Assembly: GCA_015660865.1 (NCBI GenBank)
Contig: JACTUA010000002.1
Span: 1 to 60,547 of the forward strand
Source of the DNA: Methanomicrobiales archaeon
GTDB taxonomy: Archaea > Halobacteriota > Methanomicrobia > Methanomicrobiales > JACTUA01
Direction: 5' to 3'
Length of the DNA stretch: 60,547 nucleotides
Shown: piece after piece, positions 14,182-22,309 of the stretch
Position numbering within the stretch: the first letter of the stretch is position 1
Layout: each line of letters begins with the position of its first letter
Made by a program: the position numbers and the translations under genes
The notes under the pieces: generated by a model
Databases searched by the model: none
The model's input: the letters and a program-made list of their open reading frames with translations, nothing else
Told to the model about the DNA's origin: nothing

Positions 14182-15603
14182 ATGGAGAAGGATATCGTCG
14201 TTTTTCACGGGAGCCTGCAGCAACTGCTGGAGAAGGTCGAGACCGGGGAGATGATCCCCAGGCTCCAGGCCTCCCACGCTCCCATGTGCAAGTTCTTCAC
14301 CGCCTACTATGTCATAAGCGGCATACGGCACGTCGTACCCCTGGTGCATGGTCCCACCGGGTGTCCCCTGTACATGTCCGATTTCGTGAGGACAAGGGAG
14401 TGCTGTGAGATCCGGGGAGTGCCCCTCGAACCCACCGCCTGCACCGCCCTCGACGAGAGCCATGTCATCTACGGGGGCGAAGGGAAGCTCCTGGAGGCGG
14501 TGAAGGAGGCGTACACAAAGTACCACCCCGACCTCATCGTCATCCTCTCCTGCTGCTGCTCGGGGATCATCGGGGACGATGTCGAGAGCATCGCACGCGA
14601 GGCAGAGAAACTGGTCGGGTGCAGGGTGCTCGCACTCAGGAGCGAGGGTTTCGGCGGCGATTTCCGCAGCGGCTACGAGGACGCCTTCAGGCTCATCATG
14701 GATCTGATGGAACCCCCGAAGGAGAAGAGGAAGGGGACCGTGAACATCCTCGGGGCACGATGGGGCCCCACCACCACCGAGTTCGATATGGACCTGGATG
14801 AGATCGAACGGCTCCTCGGCGAGGTGGGAATCAAGATAAACGCCGTGATCGCGGGGGGCTGCACGGTCGAGGAGCTGAGACGGGCCCGGGAGGTCGAGCT
14901 GAACGCATCATGGTGCTACGACTGGGGGCAGAAGCTGGGCGATATGATGGAGGAGCGGTTCGGCATCCCGTACAGCAAGACAGGGCAGCCCTACGGGCTC
15001 GAAGCAACAAAGGAATGGCTCCTGGGGGTTGCATCACCTCTCGGCATGGAGAAGGAGGCGCTGGAGGTGATCGAGCGGGAGACCCGTGAGGTACTTCCGG
15101 ACCTTGCCTACCTGAAACAGGCCCTCGAGGGGAAGACCGCGATCATCGAGATCACGGAGTTTCCCGGACCGATCCGGGCCCTCTCCCTGGCCCGGATGGC
15201 AGAGGAGTTCGGTGCCCACCCCATCGTGATCAACATTCACCCGTACACCATCAAGGAGAGGATGCCCAGCATCAAGTTCCTCCTCGAGACCGGTGTCAAC
15301 CCCGAGATCATCCTGACCAGGGGGCTCTTCCGCCTGGGGTCCTTCCGCTCATCGAAAGAAACAGAGGATGAGCTGGAGGCGATAGTGGGACAATACGATG
15401 ATGTGATCTTCTTCGGGAACTCTGCCCGGTATCCTCCCTGCCCGGTCGTGAACCTGACGCTCATGAATCCGGCGTTCCAGCCCCAGTACGGGTTCAGGGG
15501 AATCAGGAATATCGCTGCACTGGTCAGGCAGGCTCTCGAGAAGAAGGACCTCCCGCGTTCCCGGCTGCTCAGGGGGATGCTCTATGGAACCCGTACAAAG
15601 TGA
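14182..15603 (+). CDS. Nitrogenase component 1-like protein, D-type subunit
   Basis: 473 aa, NifD/E/N/K superfamily. Compared from memory with NifD, the three P-cluster-type cysteines are present: C36 (APMCKFF), C61 (HGPTGC) and C125 in SCCCSGIIGDD. A Cys at 245 (LNASWCYDWGQKL) falls where the FeMo-cofactor ligand Cys275 lies. The position of the cofactor His442 is Tyr (PQYGFRG), and the region of catalytic His195 lacks a His. It should therefore bind a bridging Fe-S cluster and possibly a complex cofactor, but is unlikely to be a standard N2 reductase. It overlaps the next gene by 20 bp. Confidence 0.85.
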   Translation: MEKDIVVFHGSLQQLLEKVETGEMIPRLQASHAPMCKFFTAYYVISGIRHVVPLVHGPTGCPLYMSDFVRTRECCEIRGVPLEPTACTALDESHVIYGGEGKLLEAVKEAYTKYHPDLIVILSCCCSGIIGDDVESIAREAEKLVGCRVLALRSEGFGGDFRSGYEDAFRLIMDLMEPPKEKRKGTVNILGARWGPTTTEFDMDLDEIERLLGEVGIKINAVIAGGCTVEELRRAREVELNASWCYDWGQKLGDMMEERFGIPYSKTGQPYGLEATKEWLLGVASPLGMEKEALEVIERETREVLPDLAYLKQALEGKTAIIEITEFPGPIRALSLARMAEEFGAHPIVINIHPYTIKERMPSIKFLLETGVNPEIILTRGLFRLGSFRSSKETEDELEAIVGQYDDVIFFGNSARYPPCPVVNLTLMNPAFQPQYGFRGIRNIAALVRQALEKKDLPRSRLLRGMLYGTRTK

Positions 15604-16942
15604 AAGGCCGGCCGGGGCGGATTACGGGAAGCTGGATAAGTGTACCGATCCCTACCTCCGGTGCGCCTTCAACGGGGCCGCCCAGACCGCCCTCGGGGTC
15701 TCCGGCTCCGCTCTGCTCGCCCATTCTCCCCAGGGATGCGAGTATCTCGTGAACAATGCCTTCGCCTGGCAGGAGTGCGACTACATGGAGACGATGACGC
15801 TCTGTACCAAGCTGTGCGTGGACGAGATCGTGCATGGCGGCGAGGATCTCCTTACCCGGACGATCCGTGAGGCAAAGGATCTCCCCATTACCGCCCTGTT
15901 CGTGCTCAGCGCGTGCGGCCCCGAGATCGTTGGCGATGACATCGTTGCGGTCTGCGAGACCCTGCAGCCCGAGGTGAAGTTCAGACTCGTCCCCATCGAA
16001 TGTGCCGGTTTCAGGGGGTCGCAGTATGACGGAATCGATATCGCCCTTGACGTGATGCTCAGGCGTCTCGTGAAAGAGGGGAACGAGAAGATCCCCGGCT
16101 CGGTATGCCTCATCGCCCCCCATGCCAATGCCAACCCGACGTGGATGGCAGACCTGGAATGGGTGAAACAGACCCTCTCCCGGATGGGGGTGCAGGTGGT
16201 TGCGACGCTCACGCATAAGACTCCCCTCGCCGAGATTGGGAACGTATCCTCTGCCGAGGGATCCCTCCTGTTGAGCCACGATGCCGGGCAGAAGGCGGCG
16301 GATTATCTCTCGGCCACCTGGGGCAGCGAGCAGATCTGCAAGGGGATACCCCTCCCGATAGGTATGACCAACACAGAACGGTGGTTGACGAGGCTGGGTG
16401 AGAGGTTTGACAAGCGGAAAGAAGCTGAGAAGATGGTCTCGGAAGGTGAGAGGATGGTGACGACGACATGCCGGCGCAAATGGCCCATGGCGCGGTTCTT
16501 CTTCCGGACCCCCGCGGCAATCGTTGCCGATGCAACGATCGGGATCCCCCTCGTCCGGTTTGTTACCGAGGAGATGGAGATGACGCCGGAGCTCGTGGCC
16601 CTGTACTCCTCCCATCGCCCGGCCCGCGAACTCCTCGAGGGGGAACTCTCCGATCTAGGGCTCAACCCGAAGGTCGTGTACGGCACCGATGTTTACAGGA
16701 CGAGGAAGAGTATCGGGGAGGTAAGGCCGAAGGTCGTCTTCGGGAGCACCATCGAACGGCATGCGAGCGAGGGTCTGGGGGTATCGTATGTTGTCGAGCT
16801 GGTGAGGATGATGCGCCAGTTCAGGTTCATCAACCGTGAATACTTCGGGTATACCGGGATCCTGAACCTCTTCGAGGCCGTCCAGAATGAGTGGATAATG
16901 CGGTGGCGGTCAAAGGAGAAAAGGTACGAGGCGAAGTGGTGA
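15584..16942 (+). CDS. Nitrogenase component 1-like protein, K-type subunit
   Basis: 452 aa. It keeps three cysteines at the NifK P-cluster positions: C27 (LRCAFNGA), C52 (SPQGC) and C111 (SACGPEIVGDD). The C-terminus FGYTGILNLFEAV matches the NifK/AnfK-type ending and is followed by a basic tail. The start has AGGGGGA upstream and lies inside the D-type gene, so the two are probably coupled and form a heterotetramer. With the D-type protein this gives all six bridging-cluster cysteines. The substrate is unknown; no NifE, NifN or NifB gene is in the window. Confidence 0.85.
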   Translation: MEPVQSERPAGADYGKLDKCTDPYLRCAFNGAAQTALGVSGSALLAHSPQGCEYLVNNAFAWQECDYMETMTLCTKLCVDEIVHGGEDLLTRTIREAKDLPITALFVLSACGPEIVGDDIVAVCETLQPEVKFRLVPIECAGFRGSQYDGIDIALDVMLRRLVKEGNEKIPGSVCLIAPHANANPTWMADLEWVKQTLSRMGVQVVATLTHKTPLAEIGNVSSAEGSLLLSHDAGQKAADYLSATWGSEQICKGIPLPIGMTNTERWLTRLGERFDKRKEAEKMVSEGERMVTTTCRRKWPMARFFFRTPAAIVADATIGIPLVRFVTEEMEMTPELVALYSSHRPARELLEGELSDLGLNPKVVYGTDVYRTRKSIGEVRPKVVFGSTIERHASEGLGVSYVVELVRMMRQFRFINREYFGYTGILNLFEAVQNEWIMRWRSKEKRYEAKW

Positions 16943-17022
16943 TGAACCTATACATGGCCGTACAGAACGAATGGATCATGCGGTGGCGATCGAAAGAGAA
17001 GAGATACGAGGCAAAGTGGTGA
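16942..17022 (+). CDS. 26-codon micro-ORF repeating the K-subunit C-terminus
   Basis: ATG 16942 overlaps the K-type stop (TGATG). The 26-residue product repeats the last 20 residues of the K-type protein exactly (VQNEWIMR...EAKW), preceded by NLYMA in place of NLFEA. Within those 20 codons ten differ in DNA, all synonymously. This pattern argues that the peptide is, or until recently was, under protein-level selection. Either it is a translated separate tail peptide, or the remnant of a deleted second K-type gene. The stop is again followed by TGATG, 7 bp before the NifH-like start. Confidence 0.6.
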   Translation: MNLYMAVQNEWIMRWRSKEKRYEAKW

Positions 17023-17029
17023 TGCGGAG

Positions 17030-17878
17030 ATGAGGCAGATAGCAATTTACGGCAAGGGAGGGATCGGGAAGAGCACGATCGCCTCAAACGTCTCGGCGGC
17101 CCTGAACGAGATGGGCCTCTCGGTCATGCAGGTCGGCTGCGACCCCAAGAGGGACTCCACCCGTATCCTGGCTGGGGGACGGCTCATCCCCGCCGTCCTC
17201 GAGACCTACCGGGAGCAGCTGAGGGTCGGGAAGGACGAGTATGCGATGAAACTCGGGAGTATCGTCTATCAGACACCGAAGGGGCTGTACTGTGTCGAGG
17301 CAGGCGGGCCCGAACCCGGCGTGGGCTGTGCCGGAAGGGGGGTGCTCACCGCGCTCCAGATCCTGAAGGATCTCAAGGCGTTCGAGACCTACAAGATCGA
17401 TGTTGCCATCTACGATGTACTCGGCGACGTGGTCTGCGGGGGATTCGCCATGCCCATCAGGGAAGGGTTCGCGCGGGAGATCTACCTCGTTTGTTCCGGC
17501 GGTTTCATGAGCATCTATGCGGCAAACAATATCGCCCGGGCAATCCAGCGCCTCGCCCGCCGGGGTGACACCGGCCTTGCAGGAATCATCTGCAACAGCA
17601 ACGGCGACGAGGCCTTCGAGCGCGCCTTCGTCCCTGAGTTTGCGAGGCGCCTCGGAACCCCCTTCGTCCGGTATGTCCCGAGGAGCCTCGTCATCCAGGC
17701 CTGTGAATTTGAGGGAAAAGCCGTGGTGGAGCATTCTCCTGAGTCAGGAGAAGCCAGAATCTTCAGGGACCTGGCAAAGGCGATCATGGAGAATGATTCG
17801 CGGGTTATCCCGACACCGATGAACGACCTGGGTGAACTTGAGGAACTCTACCGCTCGTATCGAAACCGGCGTGCGTGA
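17030..17878 (+). CDS. NifH-like ATP-dependent reductase
   Basis: 282 aa. The Walker A GKGGIGKST is at residues 8-16, a switch region at VGCDPKRDSTR, and the 4Fe-4S ligands are C100 (GVGCAGRG) and C136 (DVVCGGFAMP). All key NifH motifs are present, including the Arg equivalent to the ADP-ribosylation site, so it should be a homodimeric Fe protein passing electrons to the D/K-type proteins. A typical Asp/Glu-rich C-terminus is replaced by a short tail (ELYRSYRNRRA). Placing H last, after D and K, differs from nifHDK order. It is not clearly CfbC, which works with a single D-type protein. Confidence 0.88.
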   Translation: MRQIAIYGKGGIGKSTIASNVSAALNEMGLSVMQVGCDPKRDSTRILAGGRLIPAVLETYREQLRVGKDEYAMKLGSIVYQTPKGLYCVEAGGPEPGVGCAGRGVLTALQILKDLKAFETYKIDVAIYDVLGDVVCGGFAMPIREGFAREIYLVCSGGFMSIYAANNIARAIQRLARRGDTGLAGIICNSNGDEAFERAFVPEFARRLGTPFVRYVPRSLVIQACEFEGKAVVEHSPESGEARIFRDLAKAIMENDSRVIPTPMNDLGELEELYRSYRNRRA

Positions 17879-17932: not shown

Positions 17933-18565
17933 TCACCGCCGTTCCGAGAGGGCATAGATCGCTTGGTGCGGCCCGTACTTGCCGCTGACTTTTATGGTCC
18001 GCAATTCCTTGATGGAGAAGTATGGCGAGAAGAGTTCACGTATCTCGGTTTCCGACGAGAAGTAGAGCACGGTCCCGATCGTGGTCTTCCTGAACTTTCC
18101 TTTCCCGCCGAACTGAGGATCCTCTTCGCTGAAGCAGACAGAGAGATACGTTGCCCCCGGATTCAGGATCTTATGAACATTCTTCACATAGGTTTCACGA
18201 TCCTCATGGAAGATATGGTGTAAGACCTCCCAGTCGTAGGCAAAATCGAAGGTCCCGTCCACTTCATGGAGATCGCCGAGGAGATCTGCGACGACAAAAC
18301 TGCACCTGATGCCCTGCTCTTCTGCTTTCTCTCTTGCGATCGCTATCGCCGTGGGGGAACCATCGACGCCGGTGACGTCAAACCCGACACTAGCAAGGTA
18401 AATTGCATAGTTGCCGGCTCCGCACCCGAGATCTATGGTCCTGCAGGGTTTGACTTTTCCGCTCGCGACAAGGTCAACAAGGGCATCAGGAGGGGTCTCG
18501 TTATTCCAGGGGATCTTATCGAGGGGCATCCGGCGATAGATCCCGTCGATGTCACCGGTTTTCAT
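17933..18565 (-). CDS. Class I SAM-dependent methyltransferase
   Basis: 210 aa. SAM motif I is LGCGAGNYAIYLA near residue 47, followed by the motif II acidic position (GVDGSPTAI) and FAYDWEVLHHIF at motif IV. It belongs to the broad Methyltransf_11/25 group with small-molecule or thiopurine-like substrates; the exact substrate is unknown. It is convergent with the nitrogenase-like cluster, so a link to that cluster is not implied. Confidence 0.82.
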   Translation of the reverse strand: MKTGDIDGIYRRMPLDKIPWNNETPPDALVDLVASGKVKPCRTIDLGCGAGNYAIYLASVGFDVTGVDGSPTAIAIAREKAEEQGIRCSFVVADLLGDLHEVDGTFDFAYDWEVLHHIFHEDRETYVKNVHKILNPGATYLSVCFSEEDPQFGGKGKFRKTTIGTVLYFSSETEIRELFSPYFSIKELRTIKVSGKYGPHQAIYALSERR

Positions 18566-19837: not shown

Positions 19838-19864
19838 AGCTCTCTCTCATGAATGAGAAGAGCT
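19838..19864 (+). promoter_or_regulatory. Hairpin in the kdp leader
   Basis: AGCTCT and CTCAT (19838-19850) pair with ATGAG and AGAGCT (19853-19864), with a small internal bulge and a minimal loop. It lies in the predicted 5' leader and folds up two out-of-use ATG codons (19849 and 19853). A regulatory role is inference. Confidence 0.4.
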
Positions 19865-19906
19865 TCGGTGTGGAGGTGGTCCGTGGTGTTTCGGGAGATC
19901 GTTTCC

Positions 19907-22309
19907 ATGGGAAAAAAGCAGCTCAGGCCTGCGATAATCATCTTCCTCCTGCTCACCGTCCTGACAGGGCTCCTCTATCCCCTCGTGGTTACCGGTCTCG
20001 CCCAGCTGATCTTTCCATCCCAGGCAAACGGGAACCTGATCGAACATGATGGAAAGGTTGTCGGATCTGCACTGATCGGGCAGCCCTTCACATCACCCGG
20101 GTATTTCTGGGGCCGTCCCTCTGCAACATCCCCCGAACCGTACAACGCCGGATCCTCTTCGGGTTCCAACCTCGGCCCATCCAATCCTGCCCTCATCGAC
20201 GCGGTGAAAGCCCGGGTCGATGCGTTCCATGCGGCTGACCCGGCAAATACCCTGCCGATCCCAGTCGATCTCGTGACCGCTTCGGGAAGCGGCCTCGACC
20301 CTGACATCAGCGTTGCAGCCGCATACTATCAGGTTCCCCGGGTAGCGCGGGCCCGCAATCTGAGTGAGCAGGATCTCAACGCCCTCGTAGCCCTGCACAT
20401 CGAGGGCCGGCAGTTCGGGATCTTTGGCGAGCCCAGGGTGAACGTACTCTCCCTGAACCTTGCCGTCGATGACCTGGCCGCACACCGGATCTCCCTCCCA
20501 GAGCAGGCTTCTCAGGTCCCCCCCGGCAAATACACAGACGTGATCATCTTTGGCATGAGAGAGGCCGACTGGATCCAGCTCATCCTCTTCTTTGCCGTGG
20601 CAGCGGCGCTTATCGTCCCGCTCGGGGGATTTATGGCAGGGGTGTATACCGGGAAACCGACGTTCATCTCACCCGTCACCGATCCCATCGAAAGATGGCT
20701 TCTCTCCGCCTCGGGGGTGAAGGCCGATGAGGAGATGGACTGGAGGATGTTCGCCGTCGCGGTGATGATCTTCTCCGTCCTCTGCATCGTGGCTGTCTTC
20801 CTCCTCCAGGAGGTCCAGCAGTTCCTCCCGCTCAATCCTGCAGGCCTGGGTCCGGTTCCCTGGGATCTCTCCCTCAACACCGCGGTCAGCTTCGCAACCA
20901 ACACGAACTGGCAGTTCTACGTCCCTGAGACCACGGTCAGCTACCTGACCCAGATGGCCGGGCTCGCCGTGCAGAACTTTGCCTCTGCAGCAAAAGGCAT
21001 GGCCGTCCTCATCGCCCTCATCTACGCCTTCTCGCGGAGGTCAGCTTCCACCATCGGGAACTTCTGGGTGCTCCTCACAAGAAGCGTCATGATCCTCCTC
21101 CCGATCAGCCTGATCATCGCCCTCGTTCTCGTCTCGCAGGGGACCGTGCAGACCTTCAGCGGGCCGGTAACTGTCCCCCTCCTCGATCCAGTCAAGGACA
21201 GCTCCGGGAACCTGATCACCACCCAGACAATCTCCGTTGGGCCCGCCGCGTCGCAGATAGCCATCAAGATGCTCGGGACGAACGGCGGCGGTTTCTTCAA
21301 TGCCAACTCCGCTCATCCGTTCGAGAATCCGACCCCGTTCTCAAACTTCATCGAGAACCTCTCCCTCCTCATCATCGCCGCCGCGCTCTGCTACACGTTC
21401 GGGAGGATGATTGGGTCGGGGAGGAAAGGAATCGCCATCCTCACAGCGATGACCATCCTCTTCCTGCCCTTCGTCGGGATCGCCATCTGGTCAGAGGCGG
21501 GGGGGAATCCGGCGTTCACTTCCCTCGGGATCGACCAGAACCCGATGCATGCCCAGCCGGGGGGAAACATGGAGGGGAAGGAGGTGCGGTTCGGCATTGT
21601 GCCGTCGGCGTTATTCTCCGTCTCGACGACGGCAACCTCCTGCGGGGCCGTCAACTCGATGCACGATTCCTACATGCCCCTCGGGGGTCTTACCCAGCTC
21701 CTCCTTCTCCAGCTGGGTGAAGTGGTGTACGGCGGGGTCGGTTCCGGCCTGTACGGCATGCTCGTATTTGTCATCATCGCGATGTTCATCGCCGGCCTCA
21801 TGGTCGGGCGGACACCCGAGCTCTATGGCAAGAAGATCGAGCCCCGCGAGATGGCACTCGCGACCATCATCATCCTCATCCCCATCTTCCTGATCCTCAC
21901 GGGCTCGGCGATCGCGGTGATGACAGCCCTCGGAAGAGCCGCGGTCCTGAACCCCGGTCCCCACGGGTTCTCGGAGATCCTGTACGCATTCTCGTCCACA
22001 ACGGCGAACAACGGCAGCGCCTTTGCAGGGCTCTCGGCGAACCTTTTCTACAATCTCGCCACCGCCGTCACGATGTTCCTCGGGCGCTATGCGGTCACCA
22101 TCGTCACCCTCGCCCTGGCAGGCTCCCTGGTCACGAAGAAGATCGTACCTGTCAGCGAAGGGACGCTCCGAGACCACCGCCCGCTCTTCATCCTCTGGGT
22201 CGTCTTCGTCGTGCTCATCATCGGTGCTCTCAGTTTCTTCCCGGCGCTCTCCCTCGGGCCCGTTATCGAATACCTGATCCAGATCGGGAGGGGCGTGATC
22301 CATGTCTGA
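19907..22309 (+). CDS. kdpA: KdpC-KdpA fusion, K+-transporting ATPase C and A subunits
   Basis: 800 aa. Residues 1-190 are a complete KdpC: an N-terminal membrane helix (10-34), [34 protein letters not shown] with [12 protein letters not shown], and [14 protein letters not shown] ~20-residue linker leads into a complete KdpA (211-800) with about ten helices and the K+-selectivity segments [30 protein letters not shown] and ANNGSAFAG. KdpABC subunits are normally separate, in order A-B-C. KdpC's C-terminal domain and KdpA's N-terminus are both on the outer face, so the fusion is topologically sound. ATG 19907 has GGGAGA at good distance; upstream ATG 19853 would add 18 atypical residues. Confidence 0.92.

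Follow-up and report, generated by a model that had tools for sequence, protein, structure and literature searches.

A nitrogenase-like D-K-H operon in a methanogen, sister to VnfEN and probably encoding a stand-alone reductase

The D-K-H genes and their metal ligands

The 60,547-nucleotide (nt) stretch analysed here (the window; contig JACTUA010000002.1, assembly GCA_015660865.1, from a Methanomicrobiales archaeon) carries three nitrogenase-like genes, encoding two component-1-like subunits, D and K, and an Fe protein, H (Table 1). All three are full-length, intact open reading frames (ORFs) on the forward strand in the order D-K-H. K starts inside D, with an overlap of 20 nt, and a gap of 87 nt separates K from H. 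H carries a Walker A motif and both [4Fe-4S] cysteines, C100 and C136, so that the operon with a complete reductase proposed in a preliminary description of this DNA is indeed present. A further 21 methanogen genomes have D-K-H under purifying selection, with a between-genera ratio of nonsynonymous to synonymous substitution rates of about 0.06-0.17 (NG86). None of the NCBIfam equivalog models scored above its own cut-off for D, K or H. The best model was nifE for D (164 bits, cut-off 505) and BchB for K (102 bits, cut-off 490; D scores 86 bits against the same model), and H reached 345 bits against nifH (cut-off 394) and 341 bits against CfbC (cut-off 402).

Table 1. Genes of the D-K-H locus, in window coordinates
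Gene	Product	Position	Strand	Domain match or arrangement
D	alpha/E-like subunit, 473 aa	14182..15603	+	PF00148, E=6e-75
K	beta/N-like subunit, 452 aa	15584..16942	+	PF00148, E=7e-75
H	dedicated Fe-protein reductase, 282 aa	17030..17878	+	PF00142, E=6e-95
	TPMT/TehB-like S-adenosylmethionine (SAM) methyltransferase	17933..18565	-	convergent to H

Ligand positions in D and K were read from MAFFT alignments with NifD, NifE, VnfD, VnfE and Mar and from an independent PDB alignment to Clostridium pasteurianum NifD, and the two are concordant. All six P-cluster cysteines are present, as first described (D C36, C61 and C125; K C27, C52 and C111), and none of them varies among 22 D and 13 K relatives. 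D C245 falls in the NifD Cys275 column in both alignments and is likewise invariant (22/22), which bears out its earlier equation with the cofactor cysteine. The tyrosine that had been placed at the cofactor-histidine position was misaligned: the NifD His442 column holds Thr426, and the tyrosine is Y436, ten residues further on. Relatives have threonine in this column in 21 of 22 cases and serine in the other, and all 15 VnfE sequences have asparagine. The region of NifD His195 has no histidine, as had been said, with Y165 at that position and R162 at Gln191. Mar Arg428-His429 corresponds to D G412-N413 by our own reading of an alignment in which gap placement is ambiguous there. The second cofactor ligand is absent from D in both known forms and, on these alignments, the second apical ligand of a D cofactor is neither NifD His442 nor Mar His429.

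Among the aligned families, H353, R360 and a C-x-D-x-G motif are common to D and VnfE only. D also has extra invariant cysteines, namely C75 and the pair C124 and C126 on either side of the P-cluster ligand C125, together with C87 (21/22), and K has C74 and C78; all of these except K C74 are distinctive of the clade. The extra cysteines could change the P-cluster or bind a further cluster. In the AlphaFold model of D (predicted local distance difference test score 79.8; K, 83.6), the loop with C74, C75 and C87 is not resolved. The D and K models match NifD/NifK, MarD/MarK, NifE/NifN and BchB about equally (template modeling score mostly 0.6-0.8), so that fold is no discriminator, and the predicted structures do not decide between a reductase and a scaffold.

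Relatives of D-K-H and the genomes that carry it

We scanned one genome per species across 84,980 species for homologues. Methanogen carriers belong to Methanoregulaceae, Methanolinea and metagenome-assembled genomes (MAGs) labelled Methanosarcina and Methanothrix. Of 232 Methanomicrobia genomes, 22 carry D-K-H; they span three families and at least ten genera, with D identity of 86-92%. Relatives beyond the methanogens, at 63-68% identity, come from Dehalococcoidia and Anaerolineae MAGs and one Bathyarchaeon, and the viral contigs searched held none. Such a scattered distribution across two domains, with identities of 63-92%, suggests a function in metabolism that can be transferred. Identity then drops sharply to a second group at 38-42%, whose members lie in H-D-K-E-N gene clusters or parts thereof; in Nostoc they come immediately after annotated vnfD and vnfK. 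From this arrangement we take the second group to be VnfE/VnfN; its hosts are cyanobacteria, Clostridium, Paenibacillus, Desulfobulbus and an Archaeoglobus MAG. H-D-K-E-N clusters matching vanadium nitrogenase genes were seen in the Archaeoglobus MAG (L103 4629-12816) and a Ruminococcaceae MAG (L104 4658-12852). Elsewhere, a 737-aa NifH-like/NifD-like fusion is followed by a K-like gene (L161 5549-7762, genome G031).

In maximum-likelihood trees, D and K each group with homologues from methanogens, Chloroflexota and Bathyarchaeota in a well-supported clade. The D clade is sister to VnfE, with a Shimodaira-Hasegawa-like approximate likelihood ratio (SH-aLRT) support of 100 in the full tree and 97/97 in a reduced, careful tree, and the K clade is sister to VnfN (100 SH-aLRT, full tree). 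Azotobacter VnfEN was left out of these trees. Both subunits lie outside the VnfE (99) and VnfN (99) clades, as sisters and not nested, and outside the NifD/VnfD clade (100/99). Mar/Nfl and NifD-NifE-VnfD form clades separate from D/K, and CfbD and BchN/B are also far away. In approximately unbiased (AU) tests, forcing the window clade together with Mar cost 37 log-likelihood units and was rejected (p 0.011), and forcing VnfE together with NifE cost 205 (p 1.8e-78). On this sequence evidence D, K and the VnfEN scaffold are of common descent. Published trees place VnfE/N apart from NifE/N (PMC7203096), and one leaves the order of VnfE/N relative to ‘group VI’ open (PMC12176620).

H has a history of its own. 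It forms a separate clade (100/100) apart from NifH/VnfH, MarH and the CfbC-like H; its best PDB match is MarH. Residues 60-72 form a clade-specific loop that is longer than in any NifH, VnfH or MarH compared. The equivalent region of NifH touches component 1, and the long loop may therefore confer docking specificity. By its placement H is not derived from VnfH, although the ancestry of D and K is common with VnfEN. Membership of D-K-H in NifD/NifE, VnfD, Mar/Nfl, CfbD or BchNB is rejected by curated models, trees and AU tests, and D, K and H lie outside the characterised NifDK, CfbCD, Bch and Mar clades. A two-subunit component 1 with its own reductase outside known clades, the core of the preliminary description, thus stands, whereas the kinship with VnfEN and the operon NifB described below had not been seen.

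VnfE/VnfN resemble D and K over their full length (39-42% identity for D, 34-38% for K) and share the six P-cluster cysteines, the cofactor cysteine, Arg162, His353 and the C-x-D-x-G motif. D-K-H differs in Thr426 in place of asparagine, in the Cys-Cys-Cys at D 124-126 and in K C78. Moreover, VnfEN lies behind vnfDGK and uses the VnfH of that system, whereas D-K-H has its own H and no vnfDGK; no VnfD/NifD was found in the host genome or in eight Chloroflexota carriers. NifE/NifN, the FeMo-cofactor scaffold, likewise has the cysteine without His442, but D is outside the NifD/NifE/VnfD clade. Mar, encoded by marBHDK, is a proven non-N2 reductase with a P-cluster and [Fe8S9C] (PMC12552129). The Rhodospirillum rubrum system (PDB 9fmg, 9d9u) has the same NifB-like, H, D and K parts and the cofactor cysteine, but D is without the Mar Arg428-His429, Trp195 and Phe199, the gene order is D-K-H(-B) and the clade is separate. 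Two Mar-like D-K pairs each were observed on a Chlorohelix plasmid (L142) and a Treponema plasmid (L143), adjoining O-acetylhomoserine sulfhydrylase and ABC transporter genes; one D per plasmid is 48-50% identical to R. rubrum MarD. Isethionate reductase of Rhodobacter capsulatus, IsrBHDK, shares the layout of a radical-SAM protein with H, D and K. IsrD keeps one P-cluster cysteine and has no cofactor cysteine (PMC11423573), whereas the window D has three and C245, and it is by this published description that the two are set apart.

The host is a methanogen with a genome of 1.94 Mb (99% complete). CfbC/CfbD, the nitrogenase-like enzyme of coenzyme F430 synthesis, is encoded there separately: CfbD is a single-subunit protein with its own gene on contig C2, beside a Mur-ligase-like gene (488 bits to TIGR03282, cut-off 268.4; the window D and K score 44 and 20 bits), and a CfbC-like H lies on C6 (401.6 bits, cut-off 402). 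Downstream of the CfbC-like reductase gene, C6 has two short D/K-like genes of 346 and 407 aa (G000:C6:85932-88840, L004). This trio recurs in other Methanomicrobiales, so that CfbC may serve two enzymes. C2 also encodes a lone D-like protein of 426 aa, distinct from CfbD and without a D/K partner (G000:C2:51848-53041; L001 1450-2730, minus strand). It is widespread in Methanomicrobiales and in one genome (G013, L053) lies about 2.4 kb from cfbD. A domain search of the host genome found no NifDK, VnfDK, AnfDK or separate NifEN/VnfEN. The window holds neither nifEN nor nifB, as had been stated, though a NifB homologue is encoded elsewhere (C9:110336-111148; 330 bits, cut-off 344). Activation of methyl-coenzyme M reductase (MCR) in methanogens uses [8Fe-9S-C] clusters (PMC12176620), and NifB is therefore expected in nitrogenase-free methanogens. 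LeuA/AksA homologues match everywhere in a NifV search, so a match is no sign of NifV.

The usual form of the operon in Chloroflexota and Bathyarchaeota is D-K-H-NifB, as at L088 10001-14428. NifB follows D-K-H in seven of the eight bacterial or Bathyarchaeal loci that retain K and downstream sequence (L088, L089, L090, L091, L093, L094 and L097, with one extra gene between H and NifB in L094), and it also lies close behind K in the genome of L096. Four operon NifBs were scored, at 238-348 bits against TIGR01290. In eight of nine bacterial or Bathyarchaeal genomes the operon NifB is the sole convincing match to the NifB radical-SAM domain. Neighbors in the methanogen loci are variable. Three other methanogen loci have a homologue of the TPMT/TehB-like methyltransferase on the same strand just downstream of H, and a further two have one within about 6 kb; this is an association only, and the gene may not belong to the system. 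ABC transporter, DUF169-like and CoA-ligase genes are scattered among loci. An attempt to infer the substrate from neighbors fails, as the only recurrent ones are NifB (bacteria, Bathyarchaeota) and the methyltransferase (some methanogens). Farther along the window (19853-22309), an 818-aa ORF appears by eye to be KdpC fused ahead of KdpA, with KdpB-like and KdpD-like ORFs after it.

A reductase or a cofactor scaffold

We favor, with modest confidence, a model in which D-K-H is a stand-alone, two-component, ATP-driven reductase, probably [Fe8S9C]-dependent and sister to VnfEN. It does not appear to be a nitrogenase, and N2 is an unlikely substrate. Gene structure, conserved ligands, the sister relation to VnfEN, NifB linkage and the lack of a nitrogenase in the genome are directly observed, and we infer the quaternary structure, the cluster types and a role for DK that is catalytic rather than only that of a scaffold. 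H would be a homodimeric [4Fe-4S] Fe protein that docks on a D2K2 heterotetramer. With hydrolysis of MgATP, H would hand over electrons one at a time, by way of a P-cluster-type cluster between D and K, to a large cluster that Cys245 holds on D, most likely [Fe8S9C] NifB-co or a derivative. That this cluster is derived from NifB-co is likely because the operons of Chloroflexota and Bathyarchaeota have NifB as their fourth gene.

Catalysis by DK is the simplest reading, since no homologous partner is present to receive a cofactor. The H gene of its own, in a clade of its own and with the longer loop, the invariant ligands and the operon NifB favor a reductase. The general features of a nitrogenase-like reductase with an [Fe8S9C] cofactor are found at the sequence level, namely six P-cluster cysteines, the cofactor cysteine, an own Fe protein and NifB, and by analogy this parts list is that of Mar.

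Several observations weigh against a reductase. Both known second cofactor ligands are missing, and Thr426 stands where the scaffold has asparagine. No substrate-linked gene is consistently conserved near D-K-H in the loci compared. One Dehalococcoidales genome (G236, locus L092) has only a short fragment of H and no NifB anywhere; there the fragment (L092 12758-13141, bin896 chromosome) accompanies intact D and K, in a decaying operon or through a sequencing error. The genomes are largely MAGs, so that absences are soft. Finally, VnfEN itself is a scaffold, and Azotobacter vinelandii cannot form the FeV-cofactor without it (PMC8406325).

Because this nearest characterised relative and sister family is a scaffold, such a role must be weighed and is the chief rival, though a considerably less probable one. 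A VnfEN-like DK would modify NifB-co, with H and ATP, and deliver the product to a non-nitrogenase acceptor. The sister relation in both subunit trees and the lack of His442, as in NifE and VnfE, are consistent with this, and for nitrogenase-like proteins without His442 sequence alone cannot separate catalysis from cofactor assembly (Dos Santos et al. 2012, PMC3464626). Yet no NifDK/VnfDK acceptor is found in 21 of the 22 methanogen carriers, D and K are the sole PF00148 proteins in all eight Chloroflexota carrier genomes, and D-K-H has a dedicated H where VnfEN uses that of V-nitrogenase. A scaffold role for a resident nitrogenase is rejected on the first two counts. Carriage itself is not significantly tied to the lack of nitrogenase (1 of 22 methanogen carriers versus 41 of 210 non-carriers, one-sided p=0.06; our own list of nitrogenase-positive genomes, from matches at about 150 bits or more). 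The [8Fe-9S-C] clusters of the MCR activation complex (PMC12176620) offer another possible destination, but MCR activation is universal in methanogens, whereas D-K-H is confined to a minority of Methanomicrobia and occurs in Chloroflexota, and we reject this role for that mismatch in distribution.

We regard as improbable an enzyme with FeS clusters only, whose cavity holds a tetrapyrrole or other organic substrate as in BchNB, BchYZ, CfbD and Isr, with C245 and NifB otherwise employed. Methanogens perform much tetrapyrrole chemistry, neither known second ligand of a carbide cluster is seen in D and its extra cysteines could hold another FeS cluster; but C245 is invariant, whereas IsrD, BchN and BchY are without such a cysteine (PMC11423573), the operon NifB is the sole NifB of those genomes and D/K are distant from CfbD and BchN/B. 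A true nitrogenase of V or Fe type or a methylthio-alkane reductase, which the six P-cluster cysteines, the cofactor cysteine and the match of H to MarH might suggest, is very improbable given the lack of equivalents to His442, His195, Gln191 and Mar Arg428-His429, the absence of a separate nifEN/vnfEN from the genome and the placement of D/K outside both Mar and the NifD/VnfD clade.

Implications for the VnfEN lineage

The class with Cys275 but without His442 and with six P-cluster cysteines has been known since 2012 (PMC3464626), and published NifH or NifD trees contain named groups VI to VIII (PMC9391474, PMC12176620). Group VI paralogues are reported to branch near VnfE/N, their cofactor content not being known (PMC12176620), and the cold-seep NifH group VIII is a nifH-like clade without an assignment (PMC9391474). 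D-K-H may thus be an already-labelled clade of earlier trees; we compared groups VI and VIII by description only, so that identity with either label is possible. In the literature we found no functional description of D-K-H, nor any account of a sister group to VnfEN, in bacteria or archaea without nitrogenase, that has an H and a NifB of its own.

More tentatively than the reductase itself, it is possible that D-K-H represents a new class of NifB-co-dependent reductase, in which DK and VnfEN have a common ancestor and which binds its cofactor in a third way and has a Cys-rich P-cluster site. If so, the V-nitrogenase scaffold was recruited from, or was the source of, a free-standing enzyme, rather than arising by nifEN duplication. 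VnfE/N is oddly placed in published trees (PMC7203096, PMC12176620), and the D-K-H lineage bears on its origin and on whether scaffolds derive from enzymes. Only a handful of reactions of nitrogenase-like enzymes are known, and every addition to them (F430, Mar, Isr) has opened up a pathway. A sister group of VnfEN that has NifB but no nitrogenase provides a concrete test system, in which the four-gene unit of Chloroflexota is small enough to express.

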